35,070 nucleotides of DNA from Halovenus sp. (GTDB taxonomy: Archaea; Halobacteriota; Halobacteria; Halobacteriales; Haloarculaceae). Made by a program: the position numbers and the translations under genes. Position 1 is the first letter of the stretch. Each line of letters opens with the position of its first letter. The notes beneath the pieces are model-generated. The model was not told the origin of the DNA. It saw nothing but the letters and a program-made list of their open reading frames with translations, and ran no database searches. Of this stretch, positions 30,690 through 31,939 are shown one piece after another. The stretch spans positions 1 through 35,070 of the forward strand of contig JAQCNM010000181.1 of assembly GCA_028275025.1 (NCBI GenBank), given 5' to 3'.

Positions 30690-30717
30690 GTTCGTCTGGT
30701 GTTTGCATGTGGTTCTA

Positions 30718-30726
30718 CATAAATGC
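30718..30726 (-). promoter_or_regulatory. TATA box of a probably leaderless thermosome promoter
   Basis: Minus-strand 'cgaaacacgagcatttatg' places a TATA about 32 nt upstream of the ATG at 30689. Confidence 0.6.
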
Positions 30727-30842
30727 TCGTGTTTCGGCCGGAGGAGCTCACACGTGAATTGTTACCAATATTCCCGAGAACTGGCGCCACAGTGGGTTGC
30801 TGACGGGTTTCCACGAGTTCCCGTTTCCTGGCAATCGACACA

Positions 30843-30876
30843 CCGTGGCACGGGTTTATACGATGCCGTGACACGG
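30843..30876. promoter_or_regulatory. Twin CCGTGNCACGG palindromes flanking a TTTATA box
   Basis: CCGTGGCACGG (30843-30853), gTTTATAcgatg (30854-30865), CCGTGACACGG (30866-30876). Confidence 0.6.
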
Positions 30877-30991: not shown

Positions 30992-31939
30992 CTACGGGCC
31001 GGGGCTCGTACAGTCCGTGTCCGGCGGTTCGATGGGGCCTGTCTCCCCCCAGTCGAAGAAGTTCGCCGTCGCGTTCTCGTACTCCGCCCGACGGACGTAG
31101 CCGGAGTCGAGTACGTAGAGAGTGTTCGTGGGGCCGTCCGGGTAGACGAGTTCGTACACCGTAACCGGCCGGCCGTCGATGCTGTCCGCCCCCAGTTCTG
31201 TGATCTCCGGGTCCTCCGTCTCGATAGTCTCGGGGTCGTTCGGGTCGACCGGGTCGTCCGGAGCCCCGGGCGCGGACCCCCCATCGAACACGGTACACCG
31301 GTCGCCCTGCACGATGTACGTCTGTTGGTCTATCTGATACAGCTCTACGGTGCCCTCGCTCGTCGACTCGAAGGTTATGCGAGTGTTCCCGTTGCTCACG
31401 ACGTACTCGTACGACCCAGACTGGCCCGCCTGCGTGGAGGTGCCGACCACGCGGAACTCTGACTCCCACCGTATCGTGTCGAAAAACACCGCCGCATCCC
31501 CGGGACCGCCACTGTCTCCGTTTCCGTCGTCACCGCTCCCGTCCCCGTTCCCGCCGTCGTCACTCCCCCCGTCGTCACTCCCGCCGTCGTTACTTCCGCC
31601 GTCGTCACTTCCCCCGTCGTCACTACTCCCATTCCCGTCGTCGTCACTCCCGTCATCGCCACTCCCCCCGTCCTCACTCCCCCCGTTGTCGGTTCCACCG
31701 TCCTCGCTCCCGCCGTCGTCACTCCTGCCGTTTTCCTCACTCACATCGTCCCCGTTCCCGTCGTCACTGTTCTCGTCCCCGTTCCCACCGTCGTCACCAC
31801 CGAGACAACCAGCGAGGAGTGTCGTCGCTGCACCGACAGCCAGGAGAAACTGTCGTCGGGTGCCGCGTTCGGCCCTACTCTCACTCCGGGCGCTCGTGGG
31901 TCTGTTCGTGTTGTTTCCTGGAGAGTCTCTGTTACTCAT
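30992..31939 (-). CDS. Tat-exported lipoprotein with Asp/Gly/Ser-rich linker and C-terminal beta domain
   Basis: 'RRQFLLAVGAATTLLAGCLGG' Tat plus lipobox; about 95 aa (GGSDD)n-type linker; C-terminal 'YEYVVSNGNTRITFESTSEGTVELYQIDQQTYIV'. Confidence 0.85.
   Translation of the reverse strand: MSNRDSPGNNTNRPTSARSESRAERGTRRQFLLAVGAATTLLAGCLGGDDGGNGDENSDDGNGDDVSEENGRSDDGGSEDGGTDNGGSEDGGSGDDGSDDDGNGSSDDGGSDDGGSNDGGSDDGGSDDGGNGDGSGDDGNGDSGGPGDAAVFFDTIRWESEFRVVGTSTQAGQSGSYEYVVSNGNTRITFESTSEGTVELYQIDQQTYIVQGDRCTVFDGGSAPGAPDDPVDPNDPETIETEDPEITELGADSIDGRPVTVYELVYPDGPTNTLYVLDSGYVRRAEYENATANFFDWGETGPIEPPDTDCTSPGP
31512..31800. repeat. Degenerate minisatellite encoding the (G/S/D)-rich linker
   Basis: Repeated 'ccgtcgtcactccc'-type units on the plus strand. 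Confidence 0.8.

Follow-up and report, generated by a model that had tools for sequence, protein, structure and literature searches.

A second TATA box in fixed register upstream of haloarchaeal thermosome genes, enclosed by a lineage-specific palindrome pair in Halovenus sp.

The hexamer TTTATA upstream of the thermosome gene in the analysed window (the whole 35,070-nucleotide stretch of Halovenus sp. DNA), read as TATAAA on the thermosome strand, is probably the distal box of a two-box thermosome control region that is conserved across the Halobacteria and acts on the thermosome gene. The comparison of thermosome promoters revealed the components of this region: (i) the box itself; (ii) its polarity; (iii) a spacing from the leaderless proximal promoter that is fixed and differs between the paralogs; (iv) a dyad located between the two boxes. 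Judged from sequence, the distal TATA box probably belongs to thermosome control, as a second element upstream of haloarchaeal thermosome genes, and the two palindromes placed around it in the window are, unlike the box between them, lineage-specific. The features concerned are listed in Table 1.

Table 1. Elements of the thermosome upstream region in the window, in order of position
Feature	Position	Strand	Remark
Thermosome subunit gene, cct1 type, 558 aa	29013-30689	minus	identity to relatives up to 77%
Proximal TATA box, TATGTA of TTTATGTAGAACCACATGCAA	30716-30721	minus	leaderless thermosome promoter
Best dyad of the window, ATATTGGTAACAATTCACGTG, 12.6 bits	30751-30771	minus	precedes the proximal TATA box by 50 bp; position common to relative G008
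Usual cct1 place of the dyad, about 111 bp from the proximal TATA box	30812-30832	minus	degenerate in the window
Palindrome CCGTGGCACGG	30843-30853		1 bp downstream of the distal TATA box (thermosome sense)
Distal TATA box, TATAAA	30855-30860	minus	matched by an in-register hexamer in 101 of the 136 thermosome promoters sampled in haloarchaea
Palindrome CCGTGACACGG	30866-30876		5 bp upstream of the distal TATA box (thermosome sense)

In the window, the distal TATAAA precedes the proximal box by 139 bp and the thermosome ATG (30689, minus strand) by 171 bp. The next gene upstream lies on the same strand (30992-31939, minus) and encodes a putative lipoprotein with a lipobox-like cysteine followed by a long low-complexity Asp/Gly/Ser repeat. 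The proximal promoter, TTATATAGAANNRCADNCAA, served as a probe for the sampling of thermosome promoters across the order; it was matched in 216 of 295 genomes, and the reversed control pattern gave no match. Across the order, the proximal promoter is also conserved well past its TATA box, as TTTATATAGAANCACATNCAA (30704-30724 on the minus strand of the window; 136 relatives). In an early dissection of the Haloferax cct1 promoter, heat responsiveness was reportedly located near the proximal core promoter, a placement that speaks against the two-box region.

Comparison of the thermosome upstream regions of 20 relatives, a check proposed in an earlier sequence-only reading of the window, separated the two kinds of element: the palindromes were not conserved, whereas a TATA box on the thermosome strand was, mostly at -170 to -173 from the ATG. 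The distal box is also present in other families (Halorubrum, Natrinema, Halapricum, Halobellus, Natronorubrum and others). The relatives' DNA further upstream of the conserved box is divergent; therefore, the box has not been inherited within an upstream gene.

A total of 136 thermosome promoters was assembled, 71 of the cct1 and 65 of the cct2 type, these labels being assigned from N-terminal residues (GQP versus GNQP/GGQP) with no phylogeny behind them. The 330 bp upstream of each proximal box were searched for perfect TATAAA, TTTAAA or CTTAAA hexamers. The cct1 promoters gave 58 matches, of which 54 are placed 136-141 or 146-152 bp from the proximal box and four at 78-80 bp, and 47 of the 51 matches in the cct2 promoters are placed at 79-84 bp. 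After the removal of near-duplicates, a filter by which alone, without a tree, relatedness was handled, the box stood in register in 44 of 56 cct1 and 35 of 50 cct2 promoters. Elsewhere in this deduplicated set, the same hexamers were encountered only twice in 17,584 positions (cct1) and four times in 16,100 (cct2). The register classes were derived from the same data, and the in-register counts are thus descriptive; the hexamers are nevertheless so much rarer in the rest of the region that the existence of a distal element is independent of these post-hoc classes. A perfect in-register box is missing in about a quarter of the sampled promoters.

The asymmetric hexamers point toward the thermosome gene in a ratio of 46:2 upstream of cct1 and 44:2 upstream of cct2, so that the distal box, like that of a core promoter, is a haloarchaeal-type TATA hexamer oriented toward its gene. 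This polarity speaks against the suggestion of the sequence-only reading that TTTATA may drive a plus-strand transcript, either an ncRNA or one antisense to the lipoprotein gene. Such a promoter would make use of the TTTATA and of a plus-strand ATG about 27 bp beyond it, but the matches in relatives are accompanied by nothing conserved on the lipoprotein side, and we regard this explanation as highly improbable.

The conserved polarity agrees better with a distal thermosome promoter. Initiation at the distal box would add to the leaderless thermosome mRNA a leadered one under different regulation, whose leader would measure about 140 nt for cct1 and about 85 nt for cct2; the two promoters would not have to stand in a fixed register. 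This is a serious possibility, though somewhat short of an even chance. It is consistent with the thermosome-ward haloarchaeal TATA hexamer and with the 139 Haloferax genes transcribed from two start sites, which mostly give a leaderless and a leadered mRNA; an Hsp20 gene with a leader of 250 nt is among them (PMC4983044). Against it, neither a BRE nor a conserved start region was found at the distal box in the sampled promoters; there is little information outside positions -2 to +5 and the purine fraction is 0.52. The proximal box possesses a BRE and a conserved start region, with a purine fraction of 0.64. Position-by-position conservation revealed no fixed start codon in the leader. Folding of the thermosome-sense leader of the window, the only strand folded, gave no excess structure (z +0.92), and hence no conserved or unusually stable RNA structure of the kind looked for in an ncRNA. 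A conserved small ORF and a structured leader RNA were rejected as candidates on these two results, respectively. A simple second promoter also leaves the tight spacing classes unexplained. The earlier proposal of a distal promoter with a leader of about 140 nt thus holds as far as the conserved distal TATA box is concerned, but not in the BRE and excess leader structure, which are absent. Because of this absence, the distal box may be an upstream TBP-type element instead of a second start. The lack of a BRE or start consensus, of RNA structure and of a fixed start codon, together with a spacing that is overly exact for a simple second promoter, therefore leads us to prefer, with moderate confidence, a two-box region whose boxes act in register.

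Between the two TATA boxes, and in register with them, lies the dyad CGTGNNA-N5-TNNCACA, with the sequence CGTGTGAACGACTAACACA. An expectation-maximisation motif search carried out without positional information returned CCGTGNNAACNNNTTNNCACA, a dyad of the form TG-N2-A-N5-T-N2-CA. Measured from the proximal box, the best dyad sites stand at 109-112 bp in cct1 promoters of both spacing classes and at 69-73 bp in cct2 promoters. Matches numbered 147 (cct1) and 138 (cct2) versus about 12 and 10 in shuffles, a 12- to 14-fold excess obtained with a matrix trained on the sequences that it scored and with both strands of a near-palindromic motif counted. The strict TATA-plus-dyad pattern matched four places, one of them another cct2 promoter; the search for a dyad-binding factor or regulon with a loose pattern was rejected as too noisy. 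In many cct2 promoters (for example at loci L129-L138 and L255), the dyad is repeated about 34 bp further downstream, at 35-38 bp from the proximal box. A third conserved element, TCCGGCGGTTTC, precedes the proximal TATA box of cct1 promoters by about 70 bp.

In cct1 promoters, the distance from dyad to proximal box is constant and the distal box occupies either of two places about 11 bp apart, an arrangement suggestive of helical phasing, with cct2 off that phase. The TATA-to-TATA distances of about 82, 139 and 150 bp have no single helical phase, a difference of about one turn being seen solely between the two cct1 classes; one phase for all distances was rejected, since it fails across cct1 and cct2.

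In the preferred two-box region, TBP, probably together with a heat-related TFB, would bind the distal box along with a dimeric factor on the dyad. Standing in a fixed spatial register to the proximal promoter, the distal assembly would then raise or gate thermosome transcription, and a leadered transcript from near 30832 may be made too. The binding of TBP/TFB is an assumption of this mechanism, because the BRE-like purine tract and the start-region consensus, both conserved at the proximal box, are missing from the distal one. In the window lineage, the dyad beside the distal box appears to have decayed, with another dyad present closer to the proximal box, and two GTG-N-CAC palindromes would have arisen against both sides of the distal box. 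A dimer bound on these palindromes would be expected to compete with TBP/TFB. The most specific version of this scheme, which we hold to be rather unlikely, combines a BRE-less distal TATA box bound by TBP and a dyad factor, at fixed distances of about 82, 139 or 150 bp, into an enhancer-like heat-shock element whose operator has been replaced in the window by the bracketing palindromes.

The palindromes were the starting point of the sequence-only reading, which described two near-identical 11-mers flanking TTTATA. Both are present, in the order CCGTGGCACGG, G, TTTATA, CGATG, CCGTGACACGG, with centres 23 bp apart as described, and the extension of the right copy to GCCGTGACACGGC is likewise seen. 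The window contains two palindrome matches versus 0.19 expected, and at least two were obtained in 3 of 100 shuffles. In the source assembly (2.03 Mb in 190 contigs, fragmented and 78.6% complete), CCGTGNCACGG occurs at 11 sites and its reversed control at four. The shuffle expectation of 0.19 per 35 kb, scaled to the genome, also amounts to about 11, and single sites are therefore at chance level; they are scattered among mixed settings. A genome-wide CCGTGNCACGG regulon was rejected for these reasons. Two further candidates were rejected as well: an origin of the spacer from a dispersed repeat or a mobile element, since the genome contains no second copy of it, and GTGNCAC as a general thermosome operator, its matches being scattered and at about the base-composition expectation.

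As a pair, the palindromes are rare. That at 30843-30876 is the only close one genome-wide, so that the pair search proposed earlier yielded no second instance, in addition to single sites at chance frequency. First-order Markov windows predict 0.025 close near-identical pairs per window, and 326 kb of other haloarchaeal DNA contained only five, all of them GACG/CGTCG-type repeats. A CGTGNCACG pair with a gap of 8-20 is absent from 17 other Halovenus genomes. In one relative, G015, the downstream copy has partly survived (TATAAACCTGTGCCACGTGG versus TATAAACCCGTGCCACGG in the window), with a GTGCCAC core in register at the CCGTGGCACGG position and a 9/11 match; no other relative has this. The lineage-specific character of the pair follows from its absence in the other sampled Halovenus genomes and from this partial retention.

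Near-identical palindromes adjoining both sides of a TATA box, and thus located at a core promoter element, suggest a candidate local operator. A dimeric factor would act through it on the distal box in the window species, in replacement of the ancestral dyad. This is possible but somewhat doubtful. The uniqueness and low expectation of the close pair, its abutment on the box and the in-register core in G015 speak for it; the 17 Halovenus genomes without the pair and the chance frequency and mixed settings of single sites speak against it. The geometry of the earlier operator proposal is therefore plausible, while the conservation (limited to the G015 core) and genome-wide recurrence that would accompany an operator were not found. 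We know of no cognate factor for these palindromes. A chance palindrome pair next to a functional distal box comes close to an even probability: the pair is lineage-specific and its single sites are at chance level genome-wide, but close pairs are rare, and this one brackets the single conserved TATA hexamer of the upstream spacer.

The palindromes could also form a stem-loop that ends or protects the 3' end of the lipoprotein mRNA, whose stop codon, at 30992 on the same strand, lies about 115 nt before them. The minus strand does fold into a stem of 10-11 bp (-17.9 kcal/mol, z -2.1), a fold that two like palindromes give automatically. No T-run follows it, and the conserved TATA box in the loop is left unexplained; this explanation is improbable.

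The two-box architecture was not found in the openly accessible literature, and it may thus be unreported, though not with certainty. The closest resemblance is to the two-start genes of Haloferax volcanii defined by dRNA-Seq (PMC4983044), which likewise combine a strong leaderless promoter close to the gene with a potential start further upstream, and include an Hsp20-type chaperone. There, the second start was measured and its distance is variable, whereas the distal thermosome box is inferred from conservation, has a class-wide fixed register and is linked to a dyad. In Halobacterium, cctA is induced 8.7-fold by heat (PMC1971269). According to the accessible part of PMC2121645, TbpD and TfbA take part in the heat-shock regulation of cctA and hsp1, and the thermosome transcript is lowered in tbpD and tfbA mutants. 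The targets are thus alike, and such specific TBP/TFB pairs are likely readers of the thermosome boxes. That part of the source concerns which factors are required and describes no second distal TATA box. The bop-type haloarchaeal upstream activating sequences cited in it resemble the present case in placing a regulator site ahead of a TATA box; unlike these, the thermosome dyad has a TATA box on either side, the proximal one at a distance of 70-111 bp.

The heat induction of haloarchaeal chaperonin genes is partly understood, and general factors have been implicated in it. The few exact distances, the occurrence in both paralogs and the common dyad point to a single mechanism of control throughout the class and to specific bases to mutate. 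They also suggest that strong selection can act on a TATA box at a great distance upstream of a leaderless promoter, while the sequence around the box escapes it.
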